Assembly: GCF_024519725.1 (NCBI RefSeq) | Contig: NZ_JALJRK010000025.1 | Span: 1-64,000 of the forward strand | Source of the DNA: Microvirga sp. Mcv34 | GTDB taxonomy: Bacteria; Pseudomonadota; Alphaproteobacteria; Rhizobiales; Beijerinckiaceae | DNA: 64,000 nucleotides | Direction: 5' to 3' | Part shown: positions 4,126 to 29,954 of the stretch, in pieces | Layout of the letters: each line of letters begins with the position of its first letter | Numbering within the stretch: position 1 is the stretch's first letter | Notes under the pieces: generated by a model | What the model saw: only the letters and a program-made list of their open reading frames with translations | Databases searched by the model: none | Told to the model about the DNA's origin: nothing | Position numbers and translations under genes: made by a program

Positions 4126-4290
4126 AATTCGATGGCTTGAATGGATCATCGGTGGCTCTGGATCGGGCTGCCTGACGATCGCATAGCCGGTTCGTTGATT
4201 GCCCGCCGAAAATGGCTCCGCAGGCACCGTTCTGCGGACAAGGCGGAGCTTTGTCCGGAGTCACGTTGAACAAGGGAGGAGAGGTGCATC

Positions 4291-5274: not shown

Positions 5275-5284
5275 GGAGCTGAAC

Positions 5285-6067: not shown

Positions 6068-6408
6068 CACCTTAGGCGCGCATCAGTCCAGCGTCGGCCC
6101 ATCGCACCCAGGTGGGTGATTGCGCGGAGAGCGAGTGTTGCGGTTCTTGTTAGGTGAATTGTACCCTCTGGGCCGTAAAATATCTTCCTTTGCGTTGGTA
6201 AATCAATAAAAGGAGCTTGCTTAATTTTCAGATGATGCCAGATTTGATTAGGCGTCGGTAGATTTCGCCTAACAAAACATAACACTGTGAAGCGGTGTCC
6301 CGGCTCGGCAGAGAGGATGTGTATCCCTGATCTCACTCAAGAGCCGCATATGTCAGCCTCATAACAAGCATGATCGCGGTGAAGACGGTCATGAAGGGAG
6401 TGAAAGAA
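6068..6408 (+). promoter_or_regulatory. Promoter region of binding-protein gene with two LacI-type operators
   Basis: A 341-base spacer without a gene. It carries TTGTTAGG at 6147-6154 and CCTAACAAAACATAACA at 6268-6284. The latter is, as reverse complement, identical over 17 bases to 14890-14906 in front of the Rieske-led operon. The two half-sites here are about 120 bases apart. A good SD (AAGGGAG) for the next gene is at 6392-6398. The operator role is inferred from recurrence only. Confidence 0.6.
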
Positions 6409-7752: not shown

Positions 7753-7779
7753 TCCTGTCTGCCGAGATAAAACAGAATT

Positions 7780-7803
7780 GCCCGGCGTCGCCGGGCATTT
7801 TTT
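7780..7803 (+). terminator. Rho-independent terminator
   Basis: GCCCGGC (7780-7786) and GCCGGGC (7790-7796) form a 7-bp GC stem with a 3-base loop, followed after one A by six T (7798-7803). It closes the binding-protein gene and separates it from the convergent reductase gene. Confidence 0.85.
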
Positions 7804-7818
7804 GTGATTACAGATATC

Positions 7819-8781
7819 TCAAAGGTCGAGCACAAGCCTGTCTGAAAAGGATCTCGAACAGCAGATCATCAGCGAGGCATTCTTTTCACGCTCGGCAGGC
7901 GTCAGGTATGTGTCCCGGTGATCGGGAATGCCTTCCAGAACCGCGACCTCGCAGGTGCCGCAGACCCCTTGCTCACAGGAGAAGGCGACGTCGATTCCGG
8001 CCTGGATCAGGACGTCGAGGATCGACTGTCCTGGCTTGACATCCAGCCTGACGCCCGAGCGCGCGAGCTCAACCTGGAATGCTCCCTCCCTCGTCGGCGT
8101 TTCAGCCGATCCGAAATGCTCCAGGTGGACGAACTCTGTGGGGCGTCGGGCGGCCGCCTCCTTGAATGCTTCGAGCAGGGAGCTCGGACCGCAACAATAG
8201 AGGTGCGCATCATCCGGCGCCGAATTCACGATGTTCGCAATGTCGGGACGCGTGGCGGGCTCTTCCTGGCTGAAGGAGACACGGATATCGGCTCCTGCTG
8301 ACTTGCGGAGCTCGGCGATCCGAGTGAGGAAAGGGGCGCTTGACCGGGTGCGGGCTACATAATGAACTTCGTAGGGCCGCCCGAGCTTGGATAAGCGCGT
8401 CATCATCGCGAGGAGCGGGGTGATCCCGATGCCGCCGCCGATCAGCACCGTATGGCGGGCATCTTCACGCAGTGGAAAATTGTTGCGTGGGCCGCTCAGA
8501 ACAACGGTTTGGCCGACATGCAGACTGTCATGTACGAGGCGCGATCCGCCGCGTCCCGCGGCATCGCGATGGACCCCGATCACGTAGCGGCGTCTTTCGG
8601 ATTGGCAGTTCACAAGCGAATAGCTGCGGACCAGGCCATTTCCGAGATGCAGGTCGATATGCGATCCGGCTGAGAAAGCAGGGAGTGTGCCAGTGCCGAC
8701 GGCAGACAGTTCGTAGCTGTTGACCGTCTCGGTTTCCGCGATCACAGCCGTGACGATCACCGGGAAAGTGGCTCGTTCCAT
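7819..8781 (-). CDS. PDR/VanB-type flavin reductase with C-terminal 2Fe-2S ferredoxin domain
   Basis: A 320-residue electron-transfer protein of the phthalate dioxygenase reductase family: FMN domain, NAD(P)H domain, then plant-type ferredoxin. Seen: RSYSLVN flavin motif (about 53), GGGIGITPL (about 114) and YCCGP for NAD(P)H, and the cluster ligands in SCEQGVCGTC plus a later Cys in ICCSR. Family members pass electrons from NAD(P)H to Rieske oxygenases. It is the last gene of the operon that begins with the small Rieske protein at 14.86 kb, so the two probably form one electron chain; no oxygenase alpha subunit is visible in this window. Confidence 0.92.
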   Translation of the reverse strand: MERATFPVIVTAVIAETETVNSYELSAVGTGTLPAFSAGSHIDLHLGNGLVRSYSLVNCQSERRRYVIGVHRDAAGRGGSRLVHDSLHVGQTVVLSGPRNNFPLREDARHTVLIGGGIGITPLLAMMTRLSKLGRPYEVHYVARTRSSAPFLTRIAELRKSAGADIRVSFSQEEPATRPDIANIVNSAPDDAHLYCCGPSSLLEAFKEAAARRPTEFVHLEHFGSAETPTREGAFQVELARSGVRLDVKPGQSILDVLIQAGIDVAFSCEQGVCGTCEVAVLEGIPDHRDTYLTPAEREKNASLMICCSRSFSDRLVLDL

Positions 8782-8801
8782 TGTGCCGCCGATCTCCCGG
8801 G

Positions 8802-9410
8802 CTATCTGGCGACTGCATCGACGAGTTTGACGAAAGCGAGCATTCCGGGATCATGCATCCCGACGCTCTTATCCGCGAACATGCGAGCGCGGCCGACCTT
8901 GCAGCTCTCGTTGAAGAAGCGCTCGAGAACGACCTGTCCCGCCTGTTTCGCCGACTGAGCGACGGCTACCGGGTCGTTCAGTCCCTCGACCGCGAGCGCG
9001 ACTTCGTGAATGGCATCAAGAACGGTTTTGTCGCCGAGCTTCGCGCCACCGCGCGCCATCATCGCATCGCGGGACGCTGACAGAAGCGGGGCTAGCTCGG
9101 ACCAGGGGATCGCCTCGCGCCCCTTTGTCATTCGCGATGCCGTCATGAGGCCTGTGGCGAAGAGAGTGCCGAGGCTCGACCCGGTCGCTCCCATGGCGGC
9201 GCGGGCGAGCTTGCTGAACGTATCGCTTAGGGAAGGCTCCGTCGCAGTGTCTGCCTCCGCGAGCCGGTCGATCAGGCGGGTGAGCATGCTGCCCGTGTCC
9301 CCATCGCCGAGCTTGGAATCTGCTTCGTTCAGGACCTGCTCGAGGTCACCCATGGCCGCCTTGGCGCCGCTGACGGCGGCAGCGATGTGCTGTGTCGTAA
9401 TGGCGGTCAT
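8802..9410 (-). CDS. dhaL: Dihydroxyacetone kinase subunit DhaL (ADP/ATP-binding)
   Basis: A 202-residue DAK2-domain protein that carries the nucleotide in two-subunit triose/tetrulose kinases. Seen: Mg-nucleotide motif LGDGDTG at about residues 34-40 and the glycine-rich GATGSSLGTLF segment near 72. The ATG at 9410 overlaps the DhaK stop as ATGA and has SD GGAGGG five bases upstream, so translation is coupled. No DhaM phosphotransferase gene is nearby; the pair may be ATP-dependent and act on dihydroxyacetone or an erythrulose (inference). Confidence 0.92.
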   Translation of the reverse strand: MTAITTQHIAAAVSGAKAAMGDLEQVLNEADSKLGDGDTGSMLTRLIDRLAEADTATEPSLSDTFSKLARAAMGATGSSLGTLFATGLMTASRMTKGREAIPWSELAPLLSASRDAMMARGGAKLGDKTVLDAIHEVALAVEGLNDPVAVAQSAKQAGQVVLERFFNESCKVGRARMFADKSVGMHDPGMLAFVKLVDAVAR

Positions 9411-10402
9411 GGGACCCTCCAGAACGGGCAATCGGCCGGCGCTGCCAGGAGCGTTGCAAGTTCGTCGTCGATGGCGTGAAGGCTGATCGAAGCCCCTGCC
9501 ATCTCCATCGAGGTCACATAGTTGCCGACGAGTGGCTGCACGATTTCGATCTTAGCCTGCCGCAGGCGCTCGGCGGCCCGGCGGTAGAGGATGAACAATT
9601 CCTCCAGCGGCGTCGCACCGAGGCCGTTGACGAGGATGGAGATGCGCCCGGTGGTCACGGGTTGGTCGGCGAGAAGGCGATCGATCATCTCGTCAACCAC
9701 CGCGTCGGCAGGTTTAAGCTTATCCCGCCAGATGCCTGGTTCGCCATGGATGCCCATCCCCATTTCGATCTCATCCCCGGCGAGGCTGAAAGTCGGTCGA
9801 TCGGCCGTCGGCACCCGGCAGGGGGCAAGAGCAACGCCGATCGTGCGCGTCGCGTCGACCGCCTTGCGGGCAACGCGCGTGACCTCATCGAGGTCGGCGC
9901 CTTCTTCCGCCTTCGCACCGGCGGCCTTGTAGGCGTAGATCAGGCCCGCGACACCGCGGCGCTTCTGTCGCTCGTCTTGGGTTCCACTCGCGATGTCATC
10001 GGTGCCGAGCACGGTGGTCGTGTGGATTCTTTCTTCCTCCAGGAACTCACCCGCCATGTCGAAATTCATGCGGTCGCCTCCATAGTTCCCGTAGAGACGG
10101 AGCACGCCTCGCCCGCCATTGGCCAAGCGGATGGCATCCATGCAGGAATCGATGTTAGGGCCCTCGAACACATTGCCGATCGCGCAGGTATCGATCAGGC
10201 CTGACCCCACATAGCCGGTGAAGAGAGGCAGGTGGCCGGAGCCTCCGCCCGATGCGATGCCGACCTTCCCGGATCGGATACCGCTCGCGCGACGGATGAC
10301 CCGACCGGCAGTGCCGTCACGCACGAGCGAGGGATGAGCGAGAGTGAGACCGTCAAGCACCTCATCGACATAGGCCGTGGGCGCATTCAGCAGCTTCTTC
10401 AT
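9407..10402 (-). CDS. dhaK: Dihydroxyacetone kinase subunit DhaK (substrate-binding)
   Basis: A 331-residue DAK1-domain protein binding the keto-triose or keto-tetrose covalently through a histidine. Seen: GGGSGHLPLFTGYVG (about 53-67), and GMGIHGEPG near residue 215 with the substrate-linking His. It is translated just before DhaL with an ATGA overlap and follows the two amidohydrolases on the same strand. Its presence says the pathway yields a short ketose such as dihydroxyacetone or erythrulose that must be phosphorylated. Confidence 0.94.
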   Translation of the reverse strand: MKKLLNAPTAYVDEVLDGLTLAHPSLVRDGTAGRVIRRASGIRSGKVGIASGGGSGHLPLFTGYVGSGLIDTCAIGNVFEGPNIDSCMDAIRLANGGRGVLRLYGNYGGDRMNFDMAGEFLEEERIHTTTVLGTDDIASGTQDERQKRRGVAGLIYAYKAAGAKAEEGADLDEVTRVARKAVDATRTIGVALAPCRVPTADRPTFSLAGDEIEMGMGIHGEPGIWRDKLKPADAVVDEMIDRLLADQPVTTGRISILVNGLGATPLEELFILYRRAAERLRQAKIEIVQPLVGNYVTSMEMAGASISLHAIDDELATLLAAPADCPFWRVP

Positions 10403-10414
10403 GGATGTGTGTCT

Positions 10415-11524
10415 CTAGGCGGCGAGGTTGTAGAAGGCCATGGCATTGTCGCGGAACAGCATCGCTTTCTCCGCCTCCGACATGGGCATTTGGATCGCGC
10501 GCTTGGGATCGTCGAAATCCCAATGCGGGTAATCGGAGGAAAACATCATGCGGTCCCACCCGATCCAGTCGAAGAGGGCCCGCAGATCCTCCCGCCGCTC
10601 CGGCTCCTCCACCGGTTGCGTTGCGAACCAGACATGCTCACGCATGTATTCCGAAGGAGGGCGCTTCACGTGGGGGACCTCGCTGCGCATCCGCGACCAC
10701 AACCGGTCCAGACGCCATGAGAGAGGAGGGGCCCAGGCGAAGCCGTTCTCGATCATCACGACCCGCGTCTTCGGGAACAGCTCGAAGACGCCTTCTAGGA
10801 TCATGCTCGTCACCTGGGCCTGGGCACCATGGATCAGGACATGATGGTCTTCGACATAGAAGGACGGCCAGCCGCTGGCGGAGGGCGCGTAGCCCGACGG
10901 GCCGCCGACATGGAAGCCGATGGGAAGACCTGCGGCTTGCGCTGCCGCAAAGATCGGCCAATACCGCTTTCTCCCAATGGGCTCGAGGGAGCGGGCGCCG
11001 AGTTGCACCTGGGCGAACCGCCGATCCCCTGCATGTTTCTCGATTTCTTCCACGGCCCCCGCTGCGTCCTCTGCGCAGACGAGGATCGACGCCTTCAGCC
11101 GCGGCTCCTTCGATGCGAAGACATCGAGCTGCCACTCGTTCACCGCGGCGCACATGGCGGTCGAGAGGTCGGTGTTGCGGGTGACATTGGCCTCGACCAG
11201 CGGTTCCAGGATGCCGAACGCGATGTCGTGCGGGTCCAGGTGCTGGCTTTGCATGAAAGCGAGATCCGAGCCGGGAGGTCCTCCCGATGGCGGCCAGGCA
11301 TCCCGCCGTGCGGTGTTGGGCGTGAAGCGAGGGTAGGTGCCACGGCCGGCATAGATGGTGTGCTGGAATGTTCCGTATTGATCGAGGTGATCTCGCCAAA
11401 GCTGCGAAAGGTAAGGGTAAAGCGCCTTGGGATGCGCCAGAGTCGGATGGATGTCGCAATCCACGACACCGAGGCGGCTGCGGGTTGCGGACGCATGATC
11501 GAGCGTGTTCGAGAGCAGGGTCAT
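10415..11524 (-). CDS. Amidohydrolase-2 family protein (copy A)
   Basis: A 369-residue TIM-barrel metal-dependent hydrolase/decarboxylase. Seen: N-terminal DCDIHPT (metal-binding D-x-H), IGFHVGG with the middle His, and C-terminal SSDYPHWDFD with the catalytic Asp. The ATG at 11524 forms ATGA with the stop of the upstream paralogue and has GGAGGGG upstream; the longer open frame further upstream is the paralogue read in another frame. Members act as lactonases, decarboxylases or hydrolases of ring and lactone substrates. A lactonase or decarboxylase step in this pathway is inferred. Confidence 0.9.
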   Translation of the reverse strand: MTLLSNTLDHASATRSRLGVVDCDIHPTLAHPKALYPYLSQLWRDHLDQYGTFQHTIYAGRGTYPRFTPNTARRDAWPPSGGPPGSDLAFMQSQHLDPHDIAFGILEPLVEANVTRNTDLSTAMCAAVNEWQLDVFASKEPRLKASILVCAEDAAGAVEEIEKHAGDRRFAQVQLGARSLEPIGRKRYWPIFAAAQAAGLPIGFHVGGPSGYAPSASGWPSFYVEDHHVLIHGAQAQVTSMILEGVFELFPKTRVVMIENGFAWAPPLSWRLDRLWSRMRSEVPHVKRPPSEYMREHVWFATQPVEEPERREDLRALFDWIGWDRMMFSSDYPHWDFDDPKRAIQMPMSEAEKAMLFRDNAMAFYNLAA

Positions 11525-12594
11525 TGAAATGTCCCCTCCAGTCGGGTGTACGTTCTCAACGGGTTCTCGATCATGATCTTCTCGACCAGCCGGTCCGGGA
11601 TTCCCGGGGGCAGAACCTCGCGGCCGTCGAATTGCCAATGGGGAAAATCGGTTGCGAAAAGCAGCATATCGTCGCTTCCGATCTGATCCATGATCCGCCC
11701 AAGCTGAGCGCCACCGGCCGGCGCATCTATGGGCTGCGCCGTGAGCCGGACGTGTCGGCGGATGATCTCGGCAGGAGACTCCTTCACCCACGGAACTTCG
11801 GGACGCACTCCGCGCCAGGTTTTCACCGCGCGCCAGAGAAAGCCCGGAAGCCATGTGACACCGGATTCGATCAGGACCACCGTCAGATGCTCGAATTTGG
11901 AGAACACGCCCTGCGAGACGAGGCTCAGCAGCTGGTCCTCGAATGTCTGCGTGATGCTCGCGTAGTCCTGCAGGTAGTGCGACGGCCAGCCGGTCGAAGT
12001 CGGGGCGAAGCGGTACATCAGGCCGGCATGGAGGCCGACCGGAAGATTGTGCCGCTGAGCGGCCTCGTAGATCGGCCAGTAGAACTTGCGCCCCAGCATC
12101 ATCTCGACGCCGACGGGAAGCATGATCTGAACGAAGCGTTGGTCGACCGCGCAACGCTCGATCTCCTCCACGGCCGCGGCGGGATCCTGCGGGGGAACGA
12201 CGATCGACGCCCGCAGGCGGTGATCTCGGTCGAGCCATTCGGCCCTGATCCAGTCGTTGACCGCCCGGCACATGGCAGCCCCCATGGTTTCGCTCGTGGC
12301 GATCTGCCCGCCATAGACGGTGTTGCAGATCGCATAGCGCGTCCCAAAGGCGTCCAGGGCGTTCTTCTGCAGGGCCGTGAAGTCACTGCCCGGAAAGACG
12401 CCGGGCTCCCTCCAATCCGGTCGGCAGGTCAGGGGAGCATTGGGCGGGTAGCTCATCGGATTGAAGTGATCGATGCCGCGTGCGATGAACGCGTCCTGCC
12501 AATGCTCTTCCAAATAGGGCATCAGAGCCTTGATGGTCGGCACGGCCGGATGAAGATCGCAATCGATCGCACCCGTTGTCAGTGTAGCATGCAT
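11521..12594 (-). CDS. Amidohydrolase-2 family protein (copy B)
   Basis: A 357-residue paralogue of the next gene. Seen: DCDLHPA at about 10-16, PVGLHAG with the second metal His, and FATDFPHWQFD near the end; AMCRAVNDW and the partner's AMCAAVNEW show common descent. SD AAGGAG lies seven bases before the ATG. The pair is translationally coupled, so they may form a hetero-oligomer or catalyse consecutive steps (inference). Both lie between the permeases and DhaK. Confidence 0.9.
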   Translation of the reverse strand: MHATLTTGAIDCDLHPAVPTIKALMPYLEEHWQDAFIARGIDHFNPMSYPPNAPLTCRPDWREPGVFPGSDFTALQKNALDAFGTRYAICNTVYGGQIATSETMGAAMCRAVNDWIRAEWLDRDHRLRASIVVPPQDPAAAVEEIERCAVDQRFVQIMLPVGVEMMLGRKFYWPIYEAAQRHNLPVGLHAGLMYRFAPTSTGWPSHYLQDYASITQTFEDQLLSLVSQGVFSKFEHLTVVLIESGVTWLPGFLWRAVKTWRGVRPEVPWVKESPAEIIRRHVRLTAQPIDAPAGGAQLGRIMDQIGSDDMLLFATDFPHWQFDGREVLPPGIPDRLVEKIMIENPLRTYTRLEGTFQ

Positions 12595-12628
12595 CTCGGG
12601 CTCCTTCGCCGGCGTCGTGAGCGCCAGC

Positions 12629-13471
12629 CTACTTCACGCTGCCGGCCGATAGCCCCGCCACAAGGTGGCGCTGCACCATGAGGGAGAAGATGATCACCGG
12701 GATGACCACGAGGACACCCGAGGCCGTCATCGATCCCCAATCCGTCCCCGTCTCCGCCCCTGCATAGGTCGCCATGAGAACGGGCAACGTGCGCGTGGCG
12801 TTGTTGGTCAGGATGGCCGCGAAGATGAAGTCGTTCCAGGCGAGAAGCAGGCACAGAATGGATGCGGTGACGATGCCGGGCCGCGCGAGAGGGAGCACGA
12901 TGCGCAAGAACGTCGTCATGCGCGAAGCTCCGTCGATATAGGCGGCTTCCTCGAGCTCCTTCGGCAATCCTTCGAAGAAGTCGCGCATGATCCACACGAT
13001 GAGGGGAAGACTGAACGTCGTATAGGCAATGATCAGGCCGATCCGGCTGTTGGCCAATCCAAGGCGGGTGAACAGGATGAAGATCGGCAGCAGGATGGCC
13101 ACAGGTGGAAGCATCCGCATGAGGAGCAGAGTATAGAACATTGCTCCGCTGCCGAAGAACCGGAACCGTGCGAAGACATAGGAGGCCGGGACGCCGATCA
13201 CCAGGGACAGGGCAACCGATGCCGACGTCACGGTCAGGCTGTTCATGAAGGACGCGATGAAATCAGCCTGCGTCAAAACTCTGGCGTAGTGCTCGAATGT
13301 CGGCGTCCAGACCAGAACCGGCGGGGTGACGAAGATCTGCGCGCGGGTCTTGAGTGACAATCCGAGGACCCACAGGAGCGGTCCAATGAAAACGACCAGC
13401 AGCATGATCAGCCCGAAATAAGTAAGGCTGATGCCGATGAGGCGTTTCCGGCGGCTCGTTGCGACGCTCAT
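12629..13471 (-). CDS. ABC sugar importer permease (MalG type)
   Basis: A 280-residue inner-membrane permease of a CUT1 importer. Seen: multiple hydrophobic spans and the cytoplasmic EAA loop EAAYIDGASRMTTFLRIVLP near residue 188, which docks the ATPase. The ATG at 13471 overlaps the stop of the MalF-type gene as ATGA. It pairs with that gene, the binding protein at 6.4 kb and the ATPase at the left edge. Confidence 0.93.
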   Translation of the reverse strand: MSVATSRRKRLIGISLTYFGLIMLLVVFIGPLLWVLGLSLKTRAQIFVTPPVLVWTPTFEHYARVLTQADFIASFMNSLTVTSASVALSLVIGVPASYVFARFRFFGSGAMFYTLLLMRMLPPVAILLPIFILFTRLGLANSRIGLIIAYTTFSLPLIVWIMRDFFEGLPKELEEAAYIDGASRMTTFLRIVLPLARPGIVTASILCLLLAWNDFIFAAILTNNATRTLPVLMATYAGAETGTDWGSMTASGVLVVIPVIIFSLMVQRHLVAGLSAGSVK

Positions 13472-14421
13472 AGGGCGTTTTCCTTGCGACGGGATGCTGC
13501 GACGAAGAGGACGCAGAAGACGAAGACGATGAGCAACATGATCCACGATGCGGCAGCGCCGAGGCTCATATCGAAGGCGAAGAAGGACGTCATGAAGGTG
13601 TAGACGGACAGAAGCTTCGTGGCATCGGCGGGGCCGCCGCCCGTCATGACCCAGACATTATCGAATGTGCGGAATTCGAAGATGGTCCGCAGCAGCAGGG
13701 CGACGACGATGTACGGGGTGAGAAGCGGGAAGGTCACATGCCGGAAGATCTGGAAGCGGGTGGCACCGTCGATAGCCGCAGCCTCGATGGGTTCGGATGG
13801 TAGGGACCGCAGGCCAGCCAGGAGCAGGATCGCAACATATGGAGCATTCTGCCACACATTCACGAACCCGACGGAGATCCTCGCCAACGTCGGATCGCCG
13901 AGCCAGAGGATCGGGCTGCCGATGAAGTAATCGACGATACCGTAATTCGGATCGAGCAACAGCTTCCAGCACATTGATGCGACGATCGGCGTGATCATCA
14001 TCGGTACGATCAGAGCGGTGCGGAAGGCCTTGACGAAGGGAACATCCTTGTTGAGCAGGAGCGCCACTCCCAAGCCGATTGCCAGCTCCAGGAAGACAGT
14101 GATCACCGTGTAGGCGATGGTAAGCCACAGGGCCTGGGTGAACTGGGGATCGCTGAAAAGATCGATATAGTTGGCAAATCCAACGAAGCGACCGCCGAAC
14201 AGGCTTTGCTGAGCGCTCCAACCTTGAACGCTCAACATCAGGGAGAGGACCAGAGGCAGGCCGAAGACGAGAATCGTGACGGTCAGCGTCGGCATGACCG
14301 TCAGGACGGCAAAGTGTCTGTCGACCCAAGACGACAATGTGCTTCCGAAGCGCTTGCTGGTGGACTTTCTCAAGTCCGTCTCAGGCACATCGAGCATGTA
14401 GGAACTGACGCGTTGGTCCAA
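13468..14421 (-). CDS. ABC sugar importer permease (MalF type)
   Basis: A roughly 317-residue inner-membrane permease. Seen: hydrophobic spans from about residue 45 and the EAA loop EAAAIDGATRFQIFRHVTFP. The start is uncertain: a TTG at 14421 has SD CAGGAG six bases upstream and was chosen; an ATG at 14466 (20-base overlap with the Rieske gene) or at 14397 is also possible. Second gene of the Rieske-led operon. Confidence 0.9.
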   Translation of the reverse strand: MDQRVSSYMLDVPETDLRKSTSKRFGSTLSSWVDRHFAVLTVMPTLTVTILVFGLPLVLSLMLSVQGWSAQQSLFGGRFVGFANYIDLFSDPQFTQALWLTIAYTVITVFLELAIGLGVALLLNKDVPFVKAFRTALIVPMMITPIVASMCWKLLLDPNYGIVDYFIGSPILWLGDPTLARISVGFVNVWQNAPYVAILLLAGLRSLPSEPIEAAAIDGATRFQIFRHVTFPLLTPYIVVALLLRTIFEFRTFDNVWVMTGGGPADATKLLSVYTFMTSFFAFDMSLGAAASWIMLLIVFVFCVLFVAASRRKENAL

Positions 14422-21686: not shown

Positions 21687-22952
21687 ATGTCGGATGCACA
21701 TTACGAGGCGACATATCTCGTCGAAACGCCTTTGCCCCTCGAAAAGGTGGCCGCCGTCATGGCGGGCGAGCAATCCTGCGGAACCTTCACGCGGGTCGAG
21801 GGGGAAACCGACGAGCTGCGTGAACGGGCGCGTGCGGATGTCGTTGGGATCCGGGATCTGGGCGAGGTCGGGAAACCGTCTCTCCGAAGTTCCTGGCTCG
21901 ACCGCAAAGGACCGTCGGCCTCCTCGCGGCGAGGCGAAGTCGTCATCCGCTTTCCGGTGGACAATGTCGGCGTCAATCTGTCGACGCTCGCCGCGACCGT
22001 GGCCGGCAACCTGTTCGATCTGGGTGAGGTCACAGGCCTGCGCCTCGAATCTCTCAAGCTGCCAAGTCTCTATCGAAAGCAATATGCACTTCCTCAGCAT
22101 GGGATTGTCGGAACGCGCCGCGTGACCGGCGTTGCCCAGGGCGCCCTCATTGGCTCGATCATCAAGCCGAATGTCGGGCTTCGCTCGGAGGAGATCGCAT
22201 CCCTGGTGGAGCGCCTGTGCGCCGCCGGACTCGACTTCATCAAGGATGACGAGATTGCAGCCAATCCTGTCCATGCGCCCCTGTCTGTCCGTATTCCTGC
22301 GGTCATGGCGGCCGTGCGCCGCCATCAGGATCGAACGGGCAAGCATGTGATGGTCGCCTTCAACATCACCGGCGAGACGGACGCCATGCGCCGTCATGCG
22401 GACCTGGTGGCTCAAGAGGGTGGAAGCTGTGTCATGGCCAGCCTGAACTGGTGCGGCTTCTCCAGCATCGAGACGCTGCGGCGCAGTTCCGACCTGGTCA
22501 TCCACGGCCATCGCAACGGTTATGGCGCATTCTCGCGGCACCCGGTGCTGGGCATCGGCTTCCAGGCCTACCAGACGCTCTGGCGGCTCGCCGGTGTCGA
22601 TCATATGCATGTGCACGGTCTAGGCGGGAAGTTCGCACAGGCCGACGAGGAGGTGGTGGATAGCGCAAGAGATTGCCTGACGCCCCTGTGCGATGTGGAC
22701 GATCGCGTCATGCCGGCGTTCTCGTCGGGACAATGGGCCGGCACGGTGGAGCAGACCTACCGTGCGGTGAAGACGTCCGATCTACTCTTCATGGCCGGTG
22801 GTGGTATCATGGCGCATCCCGGAGGGCCCGCCGAAGGGGTCGCGAGCATCAGAGAGGCGTGGCGGGTGGTCGAGTCCGGCGACAGCATGGAACGCGCCCG
22901 CGAGCAGAATCGTGCTCTTGCGGATGCATTCAGCTTCTTCACAAAATCCTAG
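21687..22952 (+). CDS. RuBisCO-like protein (RLP), probable acid-sugar phosphate (de)carboxylase
   Basis: A 421-residue protein of the RuBisCO large-subunit superfamily. Seen by motif comparison with plant RuBisCO: K160 (Lys175), K186-D188-E189 in DFIKDDE (carbamylated Lys201 and metal ligands), H273-G-H275-R276 (His294 region), H308 (His327), loop-6 K315 (Lys334), S347-G348 (Ser379) and GGG 371-373. The position of Lys177 is Asn162. It therefore keeps metal binding and most phosphate ligands but differs in the catalytic set. RLPs next to DUF1537 kinases are known in D-apionate catabolism (OiaX/OiaT types); that role is inferred from context. SD GAGG; the DUF1537 gene follows after 15 bases. 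Confidence 0.9.
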   Translation: MSDAHYEATYLVETPLPLEKVAAVMAGEQSCGTFTRVEGETDELRERARADVVGIRDLGEVGKPSLRSSWLDRKGPSASSRRGEVVIRFPVDNVGVNLSTLAATVAGNLFDLGEVTGLRLESLKLPSLYRKQYALPQHGIVGTRRVTGVAQGALIGSIIKPNVGLRSEEIASLVERLCAAGLDFIKDDEIAANPVHAPLSVRIPAVMAAVRRHQDRTGKHVMVAFNITGETDAMRRHADLVAQEGGSCVMASLNWCGFSSIETLRRSSDLVIHGHRNGYGAFSRHPVLGIGFQAYQTLWRLAGVDHMHVHGLGGKFAQADEEVVDSARDCLTPLCDVDDRVMPAFSSGQWAGTVEQTYRAVKTSDLLFMAGGGIMAHPGGPAEGVASIREAWRVVESGDSMERAREQNRALADAFSFFTKS

Positions 22953-22967
22953 AAGACGGAGGTCGCC

Positions 22968-24242
22968 ATGACGCCGACCTACGGGTGGTATGGAGACGAC
23001 TTCACCGGCGCGACGGATACGCTCGCGACGCTGGCGGGCCGTGGCCGCCGCGCCTTCCTGTTTCTGGGCATCCCGGAGCCGCAGCACCTCGCGCGGGTCG
23101 GAGATCTTGAGGCCGTTGGGATCGCGGGGGCGGCCCGCACCCTTTTGCCCGACGAGATGCGGAGGGAACTCTCACCTGTCGGAGCGTTCTTTCGTGATCT
23201 CGGTGTCCGCGTCCTGCACTACAAATGCTGCTCGACTTTCGACAGTGCGCCGGAGCGCGGGAACCTGGCCATAGCTGCCGCGACCCTGCGCGTCGACGGA
23301 ATGCACGAGACAACCGTCATCCTCGGTGGTCAGCCGTCGCTTGGCCGATACTGCGCCTTCTCCAATCTCTTCGCGTCTTTCGGCGCGGACGGCGACATCT
23401 TCCGCCTCGACCGCCATCCCACCATGAGCCGGCATCCGGCGACGCCGATGACCGAAGCGGATCTGCGGCGCCATTTCGGCGCACTGGGTCTGCCCGATGT
23501 CGAGGCGATCCACTGGACCGTGATCGAGAAAGGCGCAGATGCGATCGCGCATGAATGGCGGCGCCTCTCGCAGACGGCTCGGGCCACGCTGTTCGATGCG
23601 CTCGACGCCCGTCATATCGATGCCGTCGGGCGCCTGCTCCGGAGCGAGAGCGAGAAAAGCTCCCTTCTGGTGCTGGGACCCAGCAGTGTCGCGCAGGCCT
23701 TCTTCGAAGCACGGGAGGCGGTGCTGGAATCAGCCTCCGGCTCGATGGATGGGCCCGTCCTCGCCTTCGTGGGGAGCCTTTCACCGACGTCGAGAGCGCA
23801 GATGGCAGCCGCGCATTCCTATCGACGCTTGGCCATCATGCCCGAAAGTGTTCTTTCGAGCGCAGGGGCCCGTGAGCGTATCGTTCAAGAGGCTGTGGCT
23901 ATGCTGGGCCAGGGCGAGCATGTCATGCTCTCCACGGCTCCGGAGGCGGGCGATGTTCCGCACAACGCGGCTGCCGATCTTGCACGAGTCAGCGCCTCGC
24001 TTGTCGATGCGGTGATCCGGCGCCACCCCGTCCGACGCCTGGCGGTCGCCGGCGGGGATACATCGAGCCGGATTGTTCAGCACCTCGGCTATTGGGGGCT
24101 CGGCTACCACAGCCAGATCAGCAACGGCGTCGCCGTCAGCGTGGCGCGCAGCGACGATCCGGCCCGGGACCGCATGCTCGTGATGCTCAAAGGCGGCCAG
24201 ATGGGCCATGAGCAGCTGTTCGAGACGTTCTTGCGACACTGA
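22968..24242 (+). CDS. DUF1537 four-carbon acid sugar kinase family protein
   Basis: A 424-residue two-domain kinase. Seen: the catalytic N-terminal motif YGDDFTGATD (residues 8-17), YKCCSTFDSAPERGN (about 84-98), HPTMSRHPATPMTEADL in the substrate domain, and the C-terminal nucleotide region AVAGGDTSSRI. The family phosphorylates acid sugars such as threonate, erythronate or 3-oxo-isoapionate (OiaK) with ATP. GGAGG seven bases upstream. Directly follows the RLP gene, which fits kinase then RLP decarboxylation or transfer on a phosphorylated beta-keto acid. Confidence 0.92.
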   Translation: MTPTYGWYGDDFTGATDTLATLAGRGRRAFLFLGIPEPQHLARVGDLEAVGIAGAARTLLPDEMRRELSPVGAFFRDLGVRVLHYKCCSTFDSAPERGNLAIAAATLRVDGMHETTVILGGQPSLGRYCAFSNLFASFGADGDIFRLDRHPTMSRHPATPMTEADLRRHFGALGLPDVEAIHWTVIEKGADAIAHEWRRLSQTARATLFDALDARHIDAVGRLLRSESEKSSLLVLGPSSVAQAFFEAREAVLESASGSMDGPVLAFVGSLSPTSRAQMAAAHSYRRLAIMPESVLSSAGARERIVQEAVAMLGQGEHVMLSTAPEAGDVPHNAAADLARVSASLVDAVIRRHPVRRLAVAGGDTSSRIVQHLGYWGLGYHSQISNGVAVSVARSDDPARDRMLVMLKGGQMGHEQLFETFLRH

Positions 24243-24366: not shown

Positions 24367-25275
24367 TCATGGATCGGACGGTGCCGGCTGCTGAAAGGAG
24401 GCCAAGGCCACGTGGATGAACTCGGTCAGCTGCTGTGCCGCGAGGGACAAGGGACGGCGGCTCGAGGTCAGGAGCCAGATATCCATCGAGGTCTTCGGCA
24501 GAAGCGGGCGTCGGACCAGCTGGTCCGACGGGTAATCCATTCCGACGAAGGGTGGGAGAATGGAAACCCCGATGCCATTCGCGACGAAGCTGCAGGCAGT
24601 TTCGGACATGGGGACTTCGATGCGATTGCGCTTTTGAACGCCGCGCATCTGAAAGGCCCGATCGATCGTCATCAGGGAACAATCGTCCCGCTCCAGAGAG
24701 ATGAACGATTCGTTGCGCAGGTCTTCCACGCCGATGGTGGCTTTTTGGGCCAGCGGGTGCTGCGCCGGCAGGAAGCACATGAGGTCGAAGCGGATCACCG
24801 CTTGGGCCGTCACGTCCGGATGGTCGAACGGAAGGATGCTGAGACCGATATCCACCTGCTGCGCCATGACGAGTTCCGCGATGCGTGGCGAGGCTCGGCT
24901 TTGAAGCGTCAGGCTCAGCTCGCGCTGCTCGGCCAGAAAGGGCGAAAGGGCCCGCGGCAGAAAGCGCGAGGCGAGAGCCGGGAGCGCCGCGATCGTGACT
25001 TGGCCCCACTCGCGGTTCCGCACGGCGGTCGCCACGCGTTCGATGCGTTCGGTGCCGGCGATCAGCTTCTCCACCTCCGCCGCGACGAGGCGGGCCTCGA
25101 GGGTGGGAACCAGCCGTCCGTTGCTGCGCATGAAAAGCTTGAAGCCGCAGCTTTCGCCGAAGCCCTTCAGCAGCTTGCTGACCGCAGGCTGCGAGATGCC
25201 GAGCCTCTCGCCCGCATGCGTCACCGATCCGGTTTCCATGAACGCATGAAAGGCTTCGATCTGTCTGATGTTCAT
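24367..25275 (-). CDS. LysR-family transcriptional regulator
   Basis: A 302-residue regulator. Seen: the N-terminal winged HTH (MNIRQIEAFHAFMETGSVTH, then RLGISQPAVSKLLKGF) and a two-lobe effector domain with RNESFISLERDD and VANGIGVSILPPF. It is convergent with the DUF1537 gene and divergent from the orphan peptide-binding protein gene, so it probably controls the 25.5-30 kb group. TTCATT (25271-25276) and AATGAA (25321-25326) flank the divergent promoter as an inverted pair. Confidence 0.93.
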   Translation of the reverse strand: MNIRQIEAFHAFMETGSVTHAGERLGISQPAVSKLLKGFGESCGFKLFMRSNGRLVPTLEARLVAAEVEKLIAGTERIERVATAVRNREWGQVTIAALPALASRFLPRALSPFLAEQRELSLTLQSRASPRIAELVMAQQVDIGLSILPFDHPDVTAQAVIRFDLMCFLPAQHPLAQKATIGVEDLRNESFISLERDDCSLMTIDRAFQMRGVQKRNRIEVPMSETACSFVANGIGVSILPPFVGMDYPSDQLVRRPLLPKTSMDIWLLTSSRRPLSLAAQQLTEFIHVALASFQQPAPSDP

Positions 25276-25497
25276 TACAATGTTCTCAAGCGTGCGCTGC
25301 GCATCATGAATTTTAGTTATAATGAACGGAAGAAAAGCAATTTGACAATCATGTTCCGCGCTCCTCTAATCCTCGGAAGACCTGCGGGCAAGGCGGTCGG
25401 GTGACGGGCGAACATGAGAGGCGGCCTCTCTGGAGAGAGCCGCCAGAGGCTCGTCCGACGTGTCTGCGGCAACAATATCCAAAGGGGACGCAGCGTG

Positions 25498-27108
25498 ATG
25501 AAATCAACAATTTCCGCGGGCGCATTGGCGATCTTGATATCCGCCGCGTCGCCTGCCTTGAGCAGCAGCCTCGTCGTCTGCATCGAAGGAAGCCCGGAGA
25601 CCTTCAATCCGCAATTGACCAGCAATGCGACCACCAGCATCGTGACGGGGCAGATCTACGATCAGCTCGTCTCGGTGAAAGCGGGCAGCTCGGAGCTCGA
25701 GCCGAGCCTCGCCGAAAGCTGGTCCGTCTCGGAGGACGGCAAGACCTATACGTTCAAGCTGCGGCAGGGCGTGAAGTGGCAGTCCAACAAGACGTTCAAG
25801 CCCTCGCGCGACTTCAACGCGGACGATGTGGTCTTCAGCTTCGAACGGATGATGAAGGCCGACCATCCCTACGCCAAGGTGAATGGCGGGAACTATATTA
25901 CCTTCAACACCAAGCTCGCGGATGTTCTGACGGCGGTGAAGAAGGTCGACGACCACACGGTCGCGTTCACGCTGAAGGAACCCCTAGCGCCCTTCATCGG
26001 GATCCTGTCCCACCAGTCGCTGGTGATCCTCTCGGCGGAATATGCCGATCAACTGCTCAAGGCCGGAACGCCCGAGCAGCTCGACCTGCAGCCGATCGGA
26101 ACGGGTCCGTTCCAGATGCAGGTCTACCAGACCAATGCGGCGGTGCGTTTCAAGGCCTTCCACGACACCTGGGGCGAGAAGGCGAAGGATCCGTCGCGGA
26201 CGCCGAAGGTCGACGATCTCATTATGCCGATCACTGTGGACGCTCCGGTCCGGCTGCAGCGCGCGCAGGCGGGTGAATGCCACATCGCCAATGCGCCGAG
26301 TCCCGCCGACCGTGAGGTGATCAAGGCGAGCGCGAAGCTCAACCTCGCCGAGACGCCCGTCGCGTCCTCCGGCTTCCTCGCCTTCAACTTCAAGGAGAAG
26401 CCCTTCCAGGACAAGCGCGTCCGCCAGGCCCTTGCACATGCCATCAACATGAAGGGCCTCGTCGACAACGTCTTCGAGGGAACGGGCACCGTGACGGGAG
26501 CTCTCATTCCGGCATCGCTCTGGGGGCACAATGCCGACCTGAAGGGGCACGCATACGATGTCGAGAAGGCCAAGGCGCTGCTCGCCGAGGCCGGATATCC
26601 GAACGGCTTCGAAACGCAGATCTGGGCGCTTCCGGTCACGCGTCCCTACATGCCGAACGGACGCCGCGCCGCGGAACTGATCCAGGCGGATTGGGCCAAG
26701 ATCGGCGTCAAGGCGGAAATCGTGACCTATGAATGGGGCGAGTACGTCAAGCGCGCGCGCATGGGCGAGTCGAAGACCGCGATGTTCGGCGGCATCTGGG
26801 ACTTTCCGGATCCAAGCCAGATCCCGAACAACTACTTCACCTGCAATTCGCAGGGTAAACCGAGCCCGTCGAATATCGGCTCCTGGTGCAACTCGACCTT
26901 CATCGATCTGATCGCCCGCGCCGGACAGATCACCGATCAGACGCAGCGGACCGACCTCTACAAGCAGGCGCAGGTCGTCTTCAACGACGAGGTTCCGGCG
27001 ATCCTGTTCGGCAGCTCCTCGGCGCTGCTTGCCGTCAACAAATCGGTCTCAGGCTTCGTCCCGGCCGTGTTCGGAACCAGCCGCTTCTCGGGCGTCACGG
27101 TGCCGTAG
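25498..27108 (+). CDS. Family-5 (Dpp/Opp-type) ABC substrate-binding protein
   Basis: A 536-residue periplasmic receptor for peptides, opines or other amines. Seen: a signal peptide ending around ALSSS; ETFNPQ near the mature N-terminus; a family-5 core with ESWSVSEDGKTYTFKLRQGV at about 76, and FQDKRVRQALAHAIN. SD AAAGGGG upstream of the ATG at 25498. No permease or ATPase genes accompany it, so the membrane components must be encoded elsewhere. The next genes are an FAD oxidoreductase and RidA-like protein, suggesting an N-substituted amino acid ligand (inference). Confidence 0.93.
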   Translation: MKSTISAGALAILISAASPALSSSLVVCIEGSPETFNPQLTSNATTSIVTGQIYDQLVSVKAGSSELEPSLAESWSVSEDGKTYTFKLRQGVKWQSNKTFKPSRDFNADDVVFSFERMMKADHPYAKVNGGNYITFNTKLADVLTAVKKVDDHTVAFTLKEPLAPFIGILSHQSLVILSAEYADQLLKAGTPEQLDLQPIGTGPFQMQVYQTNAAVRFKAFHDTWGEKAKDPSRTPKVDDLIMPITVDAPVRLQRAQAGECHIANAPSPADREVIKASAKLNLAETPVASSGFLAFNFKEKPFQDKRVRQALAHAINMKGLVDNVFEGTGTVTGALIPASLWGHNADLKGHAYDVEKAKALLAEAGYPNGFETQIWALPVTRPYMPNGRRAAELIQADWAKIGVKAEIVTYEWGEYVKRARMGESKTAMFGGIWDFPDPSQIPNNYFTCNSQGKPSPSNIGSWCNSTFIDLIARAGQITDQTQRTDLYKQAQVVFNDEVPAILFGSSSALLAVNKSVSGFVPAVFGTSRFSGVTVP

Positions 27109-27157: not shown

Positions 27158-27227
27158 TCGATCCTTCTTGCCGTTGAGCCGGGTCCTGAACTCGGCGAAA
27201 GGCCTTTCCTTCGTGCGGAGCTTGAAG

Positions 27228-28334
27228 ATGCGTGTCGTCGTGATCGGCGCAGGGATTCTCGGATCCAGTGTCGCCTATCATCTTGCCGTGAACGGCATTG
27301 AAGTCGAGGTGTTCGACGAAGTCCACCAGGGCAAGGCGACCCTGGCGGGCGCGGGGATCGTCTGTCCCTGGGCCACCAAGGTCACCGATCCGGAATGGTA
27401 TGCTCTCTATGCCGCCGGAGCGCGCTACTATGAGAACCTGGTCGAAGGCCTGACGCAGCGTGGCGAAACCGATCTCGGATACGGACGCGTCGGTGCGCTC
27501 GTCGTGGCCGAGGACCGGCGGGAACTGGATGCGGCGGATGAGAGGATCCAGTCCCGCATCGCCCATGCGCCGGAAGCCGGAAACGTGCGGCGTGTGTCGG
27601 CCGCGGAAGCGAAACGGCTGTTCCCGCCGTTGCGGGAGGATCTCGACGGCATCTACATTCCTGGTGGCTCTCGCGTCGACGGCAGGCTTCTCGCCGCCGC
27701 CATGACCCGTGCGGCCGTCGCAGCGGGCGCCGTGCTCCGGCACGACCATGTGTCGCTCGAATTGCGGGACGGAAAGGTGCGCGGCATCCGCAGCGACGGG
27801 AGCCCGATCGAAGCGGACGAGATCATCGTCACGGCGGGCGCCTGGGCGTCGCAGATCCTGCGTCCGCTCGGATTGGAGCATCCCGTCCGTCCGCAAAGAG
27901 GCCAGATCGTTCACCTGCGCCTGTCGGGAACCGAAACGCGCTCATGGCCCGTCCTGCTGCCGATGACCAGCCATTACATGCTGGCCTTCGACGATTCCCG
28001 CGTCGTGATCGGTGCGACGCGCGAAGATAATACCGGCTTCGACTACCGGGTCACCGCCAGCGGCCAGGCCGAGGTCCTCAATGCGGGCCTTTCGATCGCT
28101 CCCGGACTGGCATCGGGCACGATCATCGAAACACGGATCGGCTTCCGTCCCGCAGGAGACGGCTACAAACCCATTCTCGGGCGCGTTGCGGGGATCGACG
28201 GCCTCGTCATCGGTAACGGCCTCGGGGCGGCCGGCCTCACCATCGGGCCTTATGCGGGACGCCTGCTGGCCCAGATCTGCATGGGCGAGACACCGGATAC
28301 CGACACTGCTGCCTACGCTCCCGCCGCGGCGTGA
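27228..28334 (+). CDS. FAD-dependent amine/amino-acid oxidoreductase (DAO family)
   Basis: A 368-residue flavoprotein related to D-amino-acid dehydrogenase/glycine oxidase. Seen: N-terminal GxGxxG in VVIGAGILGSSVAYHL with E/D at the end of strand two; VDGRLLAAAMTRAA (about 161) typical of DAO substrate domains; and the C-terminal RIGFRPAGDGYKPILG...GLVIGNGLGAAGLTIGP, which closes over FAD. Start at 27228 is set by the Rossmann strand and GGAG eight bases upstream. It would oxidise an amine or imino acid to an imine, which the next gene product could hydrolyse. Confidence 0.92.
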   Translation: MRVVVIGAGILGSSVAYHLAVNGIEVEVFDEVHQGKATLAGAGIVCPWATKVTDPEWYALYAAGARYYENLVEGLTQRGETDLGYGRVGALVVAEDRRELDAADERIQSRIAHAPEAGNVRRVSAAEAKRLFPPLREDLDGIYIPGGSRVDGRLLAAAMTRAAVAAGAVLRHDHVSLELRDGKVRGIRSDGSPIEADEIIVTAGAWASQILRPLGLEHPVRPQRGQIVHLRLSGTETRSWPVLLPMTSHYMLAFDDSRVVIGATREDNTGFDYRVTASGQAEVLNAGLSIAPGLASGTIIETRIGFRPAGDGYKPILGRVAGIDGLVIGNGLGAAGLTIGPYAGRLLAQICMGETPDTDTAAYAPAAA

Positions 28335-28366
28335 GCGAGGTTTCATTCACAATCAAAGGACATCCA

Positions 28367-28720
28367 ATGACCGACATCATCCGTCACCGGAAACACAAGA
28401 TCATGCACGGCGCCGTGGAGCACAACGGCGTGCTCTATTTCGGTGGGCATGCGGCCAACGACCTGTCGCAGGGCATGGCCGGCCAAACTCGGGAAGTCTG
28501 CGCCAAGCTCGACAAGTTCCTCGCCGAGCTCGGCTCCGACAAGACCAAGATCCTCGCAGCGCGAATTTACCTGAGCGACATGTCGCAGAAGGAAGAGATG
28601 AACAAGGCCTGGCTCGAATGGATTCCCGAAGATGACCTCCCGTCGCGGGCCACGATCGGCATTGCCAGCCTCGGCGATCCCAATCGCCTGATCGAAGTGA
28701 TCATCACCGCCGCGCGATAG
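28367..28720 (+). CDS. RidA-family (YjgF/UK114) protein
   Basis: A 117-residue single-domain protein. Seen: GVLYFGGHAANDLSQGMAGQTREV, the RIYLSDM strand with the conserved Arg region, and DLPSRATIGIASLGDPNRLIEVII, matching the C-terminal R...E signature of the family (a usual Pro-x-R is Pro-Ser-Arg here). Classical RidA proteins hydrolyse reactive enamine/imine intermediates. The ATG at 28367 has AAAGGA upstream; a GTG overlapping the previous stop (28331) is the alternative. Linked to the FAD oxidoreductase that would make an imine. Confidence 0.9.
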   Translation: MTDIIRHRKHKIMHGAVEHNGVLYFGGHAANDLSQGMAGQTREVCAKLDKFLAELGSDKTKILAARIYLSDMSQKEEMNKAWLEWIPEDDLPSRATIGIASLGDPNRLIEVIITAAR

Positions 28721-28838
28721 CGAAAGCTGCGGTTCATTCAGCAATGACACTGGATTGCGGGCACGTACTCTGCCCGCAGTCCTTCCTCGAGAGGTCTGTT
28801 GACCGAGGATTGCCGCCGCGATCCCGCCGGTCCCCGGG

Positions 28839-29954
28839 ATGCCGAAGATGACAGAGACGAAAACCAGCCGGATCGACGATCGCTACGCGACCAATGAAAA
28901 ATACACGACGCTGCGCGGAATCCACCGCGATGCCCAAAGGCATCTGTCGGAAGTCGAGTGGAACTATCTCTGGTGCGGCACCGGCGATGAGGTCACTCTT
29001 CGGGATAACACGGCGGCCTTCGATCGTTATCGGTTCATCACTCCACTTTTTGCCGGGATCGATAATCCCGATACGCGAACCAGGGTTCTCGGACTGGACC
29101 TGAGCTTTCCGGCCTTCATCGCTCCGTTCGGCGGCGAGGCCGCCTTCCATCCCGGCGGACATCCCGCCATCGGTCGTGCGGCCGAAGCGGTCGGCATTCA
29201 GCAGATGGTTCCCGTGGCCGCATCGTTCCCGCTCGAGGATATCGCAGCCGCCTCTTCCGTGGCGTCGATCTTCCAGATGACGTTCGTCGGCGATGAGGAT
29301 GCCGCCGTCGACCTCATGGAGCGGGCCAAGGCCGCCGGCTACAAATACATCTGCGTCACCTACTCGCCCATCCGGCAATGGCGGGAACGGATGATGGAAG
29401 ACCGCTTCTCCATCCGGGGCGAGAGCGGTCCCGCCAATTTCGGACCGGGACGGTCCGATCCGGCTCCTCTCGTCGAATTGCTGGAGTTCACGCAGCCGCG
29501 CTGGACCTGGCAGCAGGCCGCGCGCGTCATCGCCCGGGCGCCTCTCCCGTGCATCGTCAAAGGCGTCACGAGCGTCAAGGATGCCCACGCGGCGCTCGAT
29601 GCCGGGGCAGTCGGGCTTTATATTTCGAACTACGGTGGCCGCACGGTCGACCGGACGCCTGCAACTCTGGACGTTCTACCATCCATCCGGAAGGCGGTGG
29701 GGCGGGATGTTCCGATCATCCTCGACTCGGGCATCCGCCGGGGCAGCGACATCGCCACGGCGCTTGCACTGGGTGCGGACGCGGTCGCGCTCGGACGCCT
29801 CATCGCGCTCGGTCTTGCCGCCGATGGCGAACATGGCGTTCGTCGAACCCTCGAACTCCTGCAGCGCGAGTTCTGGACGACATTGGGCCATCTGGGCTGC
29901 TCTCGCGTCCAGGATCTGAGCGAGGCCGTTCTGTACGCCCCCAATCAGCCGTAG
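28839..29954 (+). CDS. FMN-dependent 2-hydroxyacid dehydrogenase homologue lacking catalytic His
   Basis: A 371-residue protein with the glycolate oxidase/lactate dehydrogenase TIM barrel. Seen: FMN-site K241 in CIVKGV, LDSGIRRGSDIATALALGADAVALGR for the phosphate, and SNYGGRTVD at 263-271. In active members this reads SNHGGRQxD, with His as base; here it is Tyr265. The QxY motif is QMT (residues 146-148). R268 is kept. So oxidation of alpha-hydroxyacids by the usual mechanism is doubtful and a different FMN chemistry is possible. Weak SD; a second ATG at 28848 is possible. Last gene of the group. Confidence 0.85.
   Translation: MPKMTETKTSRIDDRYATNEKYTTLRGIHRDAQRHLSEVEWNYLWCGTGDEVTLRDNTAAFDRYRFITPLFAGIDNPDTRTRVLGLDLSFPAFIAPFGGEAAFHPGGHPAIGRAAEAVGIQQMVPVAASFPLEDIAAASSVASIFQMTFVGDEDAAVDLMERAKAAGYKYICVTYSPIRQWRERMMEDRFSIRGESGPANFGPGRSDPAPLVELLEFTQPRWTWQQAARVIARAPLPCIVKGVTSVKDAHAALDAGAVGLYISNYGGRTVDRTPATLDVLPSIRKAVGRDVPIILDSGIRRGSDIATALALGADAVALGRLIALGLAADGEHGVRRTLELLQREFWTTLGHLGCSRVQDLSEAVLYAPNQP

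Follow-up and report, generated by a model that had tools for sequence, protein, structure and literature searches.

The gene at positions 28839 to 29954 (+ strand) of the window, by which we mean the whole stretch of 64,000 nucleotides from Microvirga sp. Mcv34, encodes a protein (labelled FMNY) of the FMN_dh family in which the catalytic His/Asp/Tyr set has been replaced by Tyr, Ser and Thr. The change is shared by a whole subfamily, and the gene lies in an operon that is conserved across bacterial families and usually also encodes a FAD oxidase and a RidA protein. Our tentative reading of the sequence evidence is that FMNY may be an FMN amine oxidase with an iminodicarboxylate-type substrate (an opine or an aminopolycarboxylate). 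The features discussed below are:

24367..25275, - strand: divergent LysR-type regulator (Pfam, PDB sequence matches)
25414..27108, start probably 25504, + strand: DppA-like family 5 periplasmic binding protein (Pfam, NCBIfam)
27168..28334, start probably 27231, + strand: DAO-family FAD oxidase, IdaA-like (Pfam, PDB 6PXS match)
28331..28720, start may be 28364, + strand: Rid-family (RidA) gene (ORF list, Pfam, motifs by eye)
28839..29954, + strand: FMNY, FMN_dh-family protein with the His/Asp/Tyr catalytic set replaced (ORF list, Pfam, alignments)
29211..29213, + strand: Pro125 codon, position of GOX Ser106 (alignment)
29280..29282, + strand: Thr148 codon, position of GOX Tyr129 (alignment)
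29364..29366, + strand: Ser176 codon, position of GOX Asp157 (alignment)
29382..29384, + strand: Arg182 codon, lid arginine, equal to GOX Arg164 and Hmo Arg163 (alignment)
29559..29561, + strand: Lys241 codon, FMN lysine, equal to GOX Lys230 (alignment)
29631..29633, + strand: Tyr265 codon (TAC), position of GOX His254 (alignment)
29640..29642, + strand: Arg268 codon, substrate-carboxylate arginine, equal to GOX Arg257 (alignment)

An earlier note on this DNA had described an intact frame, linked to FAD oxidoreductase and RidA genes, in which the catalytic His is replaced by Tyr265 and the QxY motif reads QMT whereas the FMN lysine and Arg268 are kept. Alignment with spinach glycolate oxidase (GOX) bears out each of these points: the frame runs intact over 371 amino acids, the motif is SNYGGRT with the Tyr codon TAC (one base away from the His codon CAC), QxY corresponds to Q146-M147-T148, K241 and R268 equal GOX K230 and R257, and both neighbour genes lie directly upstream of FMNY. 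Beyond the note, GOX D157 has become Ser176 and S106 has become Pro125; Tyr43 (GOX Tyr24) is kept.

The Pfam FMN_dh profile (PF01070) matches FMNY with 321.9 bits against a cut-off of 24.9, over profile positions 1-348 of 350. Seven NCBIfam models also match, all below their cut-offs: the best is MftD (TIGR03966, 215.5 against 470.85 bits), and L-lactate oxidase (TIGR02708, 172.5 against 645.5) and LldD (NF033901, 133.2 against 550) fall short as well. Compared with the (S)-2-hydroxyacid oxidases, to which it is 27-33% identical among the top 50 matches, FMNY has the FMN lysine, Tyr24, Arg164 and Arg257 but lacks His254, Asp157, Tyr129 and Ser106. Since the first three of these missing residues are among those that define EC 1.1.3.15, plain membership of this class was rejected. 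The AlphaFold model (mean pLDDT 83.4), which was made without FMN and is unsure at the lid (177-195) and at residues 267-270, has Hmo and glycolate oxidase as its closest folds in a Foldseek search (1GOX, Hmo 5ZZP/5ZZQ and lactate oxidases, E of about 1e-30 to 1e-28 within the top 50), a result that bears on the fold and not on the chemistry. A 284-amino-acid ORF on the other strand (28734-29588) was rejected as a real gene because third-position GC favours the + frame. Elsewhere in the same genome the FMN_dh search gave a single partial match of 25.1 bits (Pfam cut-off 24.9) and no further full-length gene. A scan for promoters and terminators returned three promoter-like sites against 1.1 expected and four terminator-like sites against 4.7, none of which is used here.

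The replacements are not peculiar to the window. Tyr265, Ser176, Lys241 and Arg268 occur in 34/34 full-length rows of the first homologue set (window included), and after enlargement of the set Tyr265 and Ser176 are found in all 38 subfamily rows, which span ten proteobacterial families and one actinobacterium. By comparison, position 265 is His in 81/81 other FMN_dh rows (Tyr in 0/81) and position 176 is Asp in 80/80, one further outgroup row being gapped. Position 148 holds Thr in 37 subfamily rows and Ser in one; Pro125 is present in 38/38, and also in the 11/11 rows of the sister clade described below. Lys241, Arg182 and Arg268 are kept in every subfamily row and Tyr43 in 37 of the 38, while the new polar residues Ser176, Tyr265 and Gln180 are fixed. 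When we asked for positions with one residue in at least 95% of the subfamily and a different one in at least 90% of the 70 non-sister outgroup rows, only 125, 148, 176 and 265 were left out of 371. Three of these four are catalytic, which we counted in favour of the amine reading given below.

A quick maximum-likelihood tree unites the 38 rows in a single clade on a long stem (SH-aLRT 100, stem 1.31); its sister is an 11-row actinobacterial clade (own support 82, joint support with the subfamily 99). Read most simply, the tree places the replacement of His254/Asp157/Tyr129 by Tyr/Ser/Thr once, on the stem of the clade. The dN/dS of FMNY (NG86) is 0.052-0.070 against the Microvirga orthologues L001-L004, 0.093 against a fifth (L014) and 0.100-0.219 against three more distant copies; these values are close to or below those of the neighbour genes, with dS at 0.8-1.7 and thus near saturation. 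The earlier note had held that close homologues with His in the same gene context would indicate a point defect. No such homologue was found, all 38 rows having Tyr, and this agreement together with the low dN/dS rules out a point defect, a sequencing error or a pseudogene. The note's opinion that the protein is probably functional gains support from the shared Tyr, the conserved operon and the low dN/dS. Its further suggestion of changed chemistry is one that we also draw from the sequence: it would fit the data of PMC6677016, in which the Hmo mutants H252F, R163A and R255A lost activity, H252F showing none that was detectable.

These counts rest on the following sets. The contig scan gave 35 loci, of which 33 were used; L035 is a 28-residue match and not a relative, and was left out of residue and operon counts, and L031 was dropped because its frame ends early with the contig end near. 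In this locus, from Microvirga lupini (L031:9992-10756), the match runs on beyond the early end of the frame, and the truncation may be a draft error or decay. The set was enlarged by the plasmid copies L065 and L066, by L102 (from the search for Chelativorans-group genomes) and by the congeneric L038, which is identical to L008. The 81 outgroup rows comprise 26 relatives at E<=1e-40 from 299 phylum genomes (few candidates were scored per genome), three plasmid and 15 actinobacterial rows, 29 of the 32 matches obtained when 70 genomes were surveyed for PF01070, and eight of 18 MftD matches. Three pairs among them are identical, and L036, L037, L075 and L124 (own or query copies and a weak partial match) are excluded. 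For plasmids, five of 178 matching records were taken, many Klebsiella records lying outside the sample.

The usual operon order is LysR, DppA-like binding protein, FAD oxidase, RidA, FMNY. Among the 33 full-length loci we find the binding protein in 31, an IdaA-like FAD oxidase (at least 60% identity) in 31, RidA in 30 and LysR (at least 49% identity) in 30, on the opposite strand in 29 of these and on the same strand in L034. DppBCDF-like genes lie inside the operon in 9/33 and a second FAD oxidase gene follows just downstream in 9/33; at least one FAD oxidase gene is present at every locus. The clade-wide conservation of Tyr beside RidA and DAO-family neighbours, which the earlier note had asked to be checked, is what we observe. 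The LysR regulator has two PDB sequence matches at E<=1e-15, a Rubisco operon regulator (73.4 bits) and OccR (63.6 bits); the latter is weak and ranks behind the former, so an identity as opine regulator was not adopted and is a hint at most. Further upstream (21687-24242) the window encodes a RuBisCO-like protein (OiaX, 410.8 bits, cut-off 700) followed by an OiaK-like kinase (234.4 bits, cut-off 700), apparently a divergent sugar-acid pathway. A link between FMNY and these genes was rejected, the RuBisCO-like protein being unmatched at E 1e-8 in the 38 loci.

RidA was not found in three operons (L015, L020 and L023). Bosea (L015) combines another ABC transporter and an isochorismatase-like hydrolase with FMNY and the second FAD oxidase; a search of its genome at E 1e-40 found no oxidase of the IdaA type. 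The Leifsonia locus (L020/L093) has a Dpp-type transporter, a hydrolase that is 63% identical, FMNY and a second FAD oxidase, with an additional FAD oxidase of 47% identity about 7 kb off. At the third locus, in Salinicola (L023), RidA and LysR matches are both absent and a distant relative of the hydrolase lies 1.6 kb away on the other strand. A close isochorismatase-like hydrolase was detected only in L015 and L020 when the 35 loci and two subfamily plasmid loci were searched.

The FAD oxidase of the window operon matches PDB 6PXS, whose title names the iminodiacetate oxidase IdaA of Chelativorans sp. BNC1, with 532.6 bits (69% identity over 353 residues, 67% over 364 columns); on this sequence match the two enzymes are close kin. 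The exact IdaA protein was found in one genome and a 99% copy in another. Around the exact copy lie a Rid gene, a binding protein, DppB-, DppC- and fused DppDF-like genes, and a NtaA/DmoA-type monooxygenase with an FMN reductase (EmoA/EmoB-like), a gene set that matches the EDTA operon reported in PMC7312458. No FMNY was detected in the 20 kb around this copy. Conversely, a tblastn search of the window and the 38 loci gave no EmoA/EmoB match at E 1e-5. The two operons are thus alike in the FAD oxidase and in a nearby RidA gene but differ in EmoA/EmoB and in their binding proteins, which match other models, so that orthology of the latter is unsupported. At L102 the FMNY operon is of the standard type, and its oxidase shares 76% identity with IdaA. 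IdaA-like FAD oxidases also occur outside FMNY operons, together with Dpp-type transporter genes and gamma-glutamyltranspeptidase (L091:101-8462 and L103:458-9484, the latter also with RidA); this is another natural setting for IdaA kin. For the second FAD oxidase (the copy in L066) the best PDB sequence match is remote (7fgp, E 6.8e-28, 101 bits). The title of 7FGP is flavin-containing opine dehydrogenase, although the gene stands 3' of FMNY in only 9/33 loci. Given the IdaA-like oxidase and the 7FGP match, the sequences point to operon substrates in which a secondary amine joins two carbons that each bear a carboxylate.

Another line of evidence concerns RidA. Within 1.5 kb of the FMN gene it is present in 23 of 36 subfamily loci (the window and L038 uncounted); in the remaining 13 it lies further off behind DppBCDF-like genes in 10 and was not found in three. 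At the same distance it is present in 8/11 sister loci, in 0/8 MftD loci and in 0/62 other FMN_dh loci, 68 of these 70 non-sister loci being flanked by 1 kb of sequence or more on either side. The sister loci missed are L067 and L068, with a Rid gene 3 kb away, and L144, where the contig ends. The RidA profile was built from subfamily, sister, EDTA-operon and one GGT-operon RidA proteins and is biased towards these, yet an unrelated RidA in L102 was also recovered, at 2e-10. By eye, the Rid Arg and Glu (SRAT, LIEVI) are present in the window RidA and in the rows inspected, which were 14 of the 41. According to PMC4433059, Rid proteins hydrolyse imines made by amino acid oxidases, and their imine deaminase activity needs a conserved arginine (Arg105 in S. 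enterica RidA); Rid genes cluster with FAD amine oxidase genes (PMC4433059, PMC5619798).

The sister proteins (rows L076-L084, L067 and L068) resemble FMNY in Trp181, Trp222 and Pro125 but keep His and Asp and have His for Tyr129 and Phe for Tyr24, all in 11/11. Eight of their loci (L142, L143, L145-L150) were seen to carry an actinobacterial FMN_dh gene with His/Asp adjoining RidA, and L143 has an ABC_sub_bind binding protein. No FAD oxidase of either kind was detected by tblastn and profile in the 11 sister stretches of 10-20 kb. Because the sister RidA genes had escaped a tblastn search that used the window RidA as query, this absence was rechecked with the profile, which does find both kinds in L066. 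At the sister loci the imine would have to be made by the FMN enzyme or to arise from another source in the cell.

The amine reading of FMNY draws on all these observations, from the fixed replacements, the tree and the low dN/dS to the operon, the FAD oxidases and RidA. Loss of His/Asp with retention of both arginines speaks for the same kind of carboxylate and a different leaving proton, and RidA adjoins the sister FMN gene where no FAD oxidase is found, while it is absent near the 70 others. In such an enzyme the carboxylate of an (S)-2-amino or N-substituted 2-amino acid would be held by Tyr43, Arg182 and Arg268. A neutral amine would need no base to deprotonate a hydroxyl, so that hydride could pass directly from C-alpha to FMN N5; the imine would then be released and hydrolysed by RidA. 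Together, FMNY and the FAD oxidase would carry out two oxidative C-N cleavages of an imported iminodicarboxylate, candidates being an opine, an aminopolycarboxylate or an N-carboxymethyl amino acid. The glycyl or D side would fall to the IdaA-type oxidase; FMNY would act on the L side or on the amino acid that has been set free.

Several observations weaken this reading. MftD, the pre-mycofactocin synthase, is an oxidative deaminase in the FMN_dh fold and acts on an amine. It shares the fold with FMNY, but both His and Asp are retained and Arg257 is replaced by Asn (8/8 rows, from the 8 of 18 matches sampled), so it was ruled out as a precedent without the dyad. The RidA-linked sister keeps His/Asp as well: amine chemistry need not entail losing the dyad and cannot on its own account for that loss. 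Also, the RidA in the subfamily operon could serve the FAD oxidase alone. No RidA was found in three operons, and the two with an isochorismatase-like hydrolase fit other chemistry. Finally, the carbanion mechanism argued for the hydroxyacid-oxidase family in PMC10153336 would require a base for an amine too.

The hydrolase bears on a rather unlikely alternative, in which FMNY would be an internal monooxygenase (oxidative decarboxylase) similar to lactate 2-monooxygenase, converting an amino acid or imine and O2 into an amide and CO2, with later hydrolysis of the amide. The Hmo variant Y128F behaves as an LMO-like four-electron oxidative decarboxylase (PMC6677016), the equivalent tyrosine is absent from 38/38 subfamily rows, and the hydrolase lies directly 5' of FMNY in Bosea L015 and Leifsonia L020. 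However, these are the only two of the loci searched with a close hydrolase, whereas RidA is found in 30 of the 33 operons; moreover the sister, with His in 11/11, also lacks that tyrosine, and the H252F variant of Hmo is dead.

It is also unlikely that FMNY oxidises 2-hydroxyacids or glyoxylate with Tyr265 as the base, for example clearing glyoxylate made by the IdaA-type oxidase. The carboxylate-binding residues are kept, the fold matches Hmo and glycolate oxidase, and glyoxylate is an IdaA product according to PMC7312458. Experience with EC 1.1.3.15 proteins cuts both ways: in PMC8491902, one or more of seven conserved residues were missing from 8/10 inactive proteins, but 2/14 active ones were also without the full seven active-site residues. 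Against this explanation, the base His is essential in Hmo (PMC6677016), and FMNY has lost Asp157 and Tyr129 too. The label "alpha-hydroxy acid oxidase" under which FMNY is annotated on the Salipiger abyssi plasmid pPABY1 (L066) is probably wrong for the whole subfamily.

Given the loss of the catalytic base together with its partner and the tyrosine, and a FAD oxidase gene at 33/33 loci, it might be argued that FMNY is a pseudoenzyme which serves the FAD oxidase as an electron relay, as a regulator or as a partner that binds FMN or a ligand. We consider this quite improbable: Tyr43 (37/38), Arg182 and Arg268 (38/38) are fixed as in a working pocket, as are the new polar residues Ser176, Tyr265 and Gln180, and in Bosea, where no IdaA-type partner was found, it is another FAD oxidase that follows FMNY. 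A non-redox or reductive FMN enzyme (isomerisation, imine reduction) with Tyr265 as general acid is very improbable: Tyr and Ser acid-base groups do occur in other FMN TIM-barrel enzymes, but the Pfam scan gives no NAD(P)H-binding domain, only FMN barrel families, and the gene company is oxidative.

If the amine reading of FMNY is pursued further, the subfamily could represent a hitherto unnoticed class of FMN amine (imino acid) oxidases, L-specific and with the glycolate-oxidase fold but without the His-Asp dyad, whose active site would be the mirror image of that of the DAO-like operon partner, the pair dismantling natural iminodicarboxylates. We regard this wider proposal as doubtful; the idea of a mirror image to the D-amino-acid-oxidase fold is taken from a paper title (Mattevi 1996). 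No description of the FMNY subfamily was found in the titles and abstract starts of 12 of the 17 matching open-licence PMC papers.

The subfamily is rare and patchy. At E 1e-60 it was found in 2/149 genomes of the window's family; among the matches in 299 phylum genomes only the window's own genome is a member, and in 296 genomes of the actinobacterial class it occurs only in the Leifsonia genome itself. Copies are also found on plasmids: L066 (pPABY1, 4115-14198) has a ten-gene version of the operon beside repABC. This distribution, together with the plasmid copies, suggests that the FMNY operon is an accessory module moving between lineages. An isochorismatase-like hydrolase directly 5' of FMNY with a second FAD oxidase 3' is shared by Bosea (L015:9328-11080) and the actinobacterial Leifsonia (L093:17629-19451), which suggests horizontal transfer of a variant module.

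In textbooks the catalytic His serves as the base of a flavoenzyme family that has been studied intensively, and in which carbanion and hydride transfer mechanisms are disputed: PMC10153336 argues for the former and PMC6677016 for direct hydride transfer. The FMNY subfamily has lost this base, its partner and the tyrosine, and yet selection maintains it within a conserved operon; it offers a test, set by nature, of how far the fold can work without these residues. Natural relatives of the iminodiacetate oxidase used for EDTA degradation are also indicated by the operon, as is a possible source of it: IdaA may have come from an operon of the FMNY type. If the proposed class of L-specific amine oxidases is real, IdaA of the EDTA pathway would have been recruited from an operon in which such an enzyme and its FAD partner work together.
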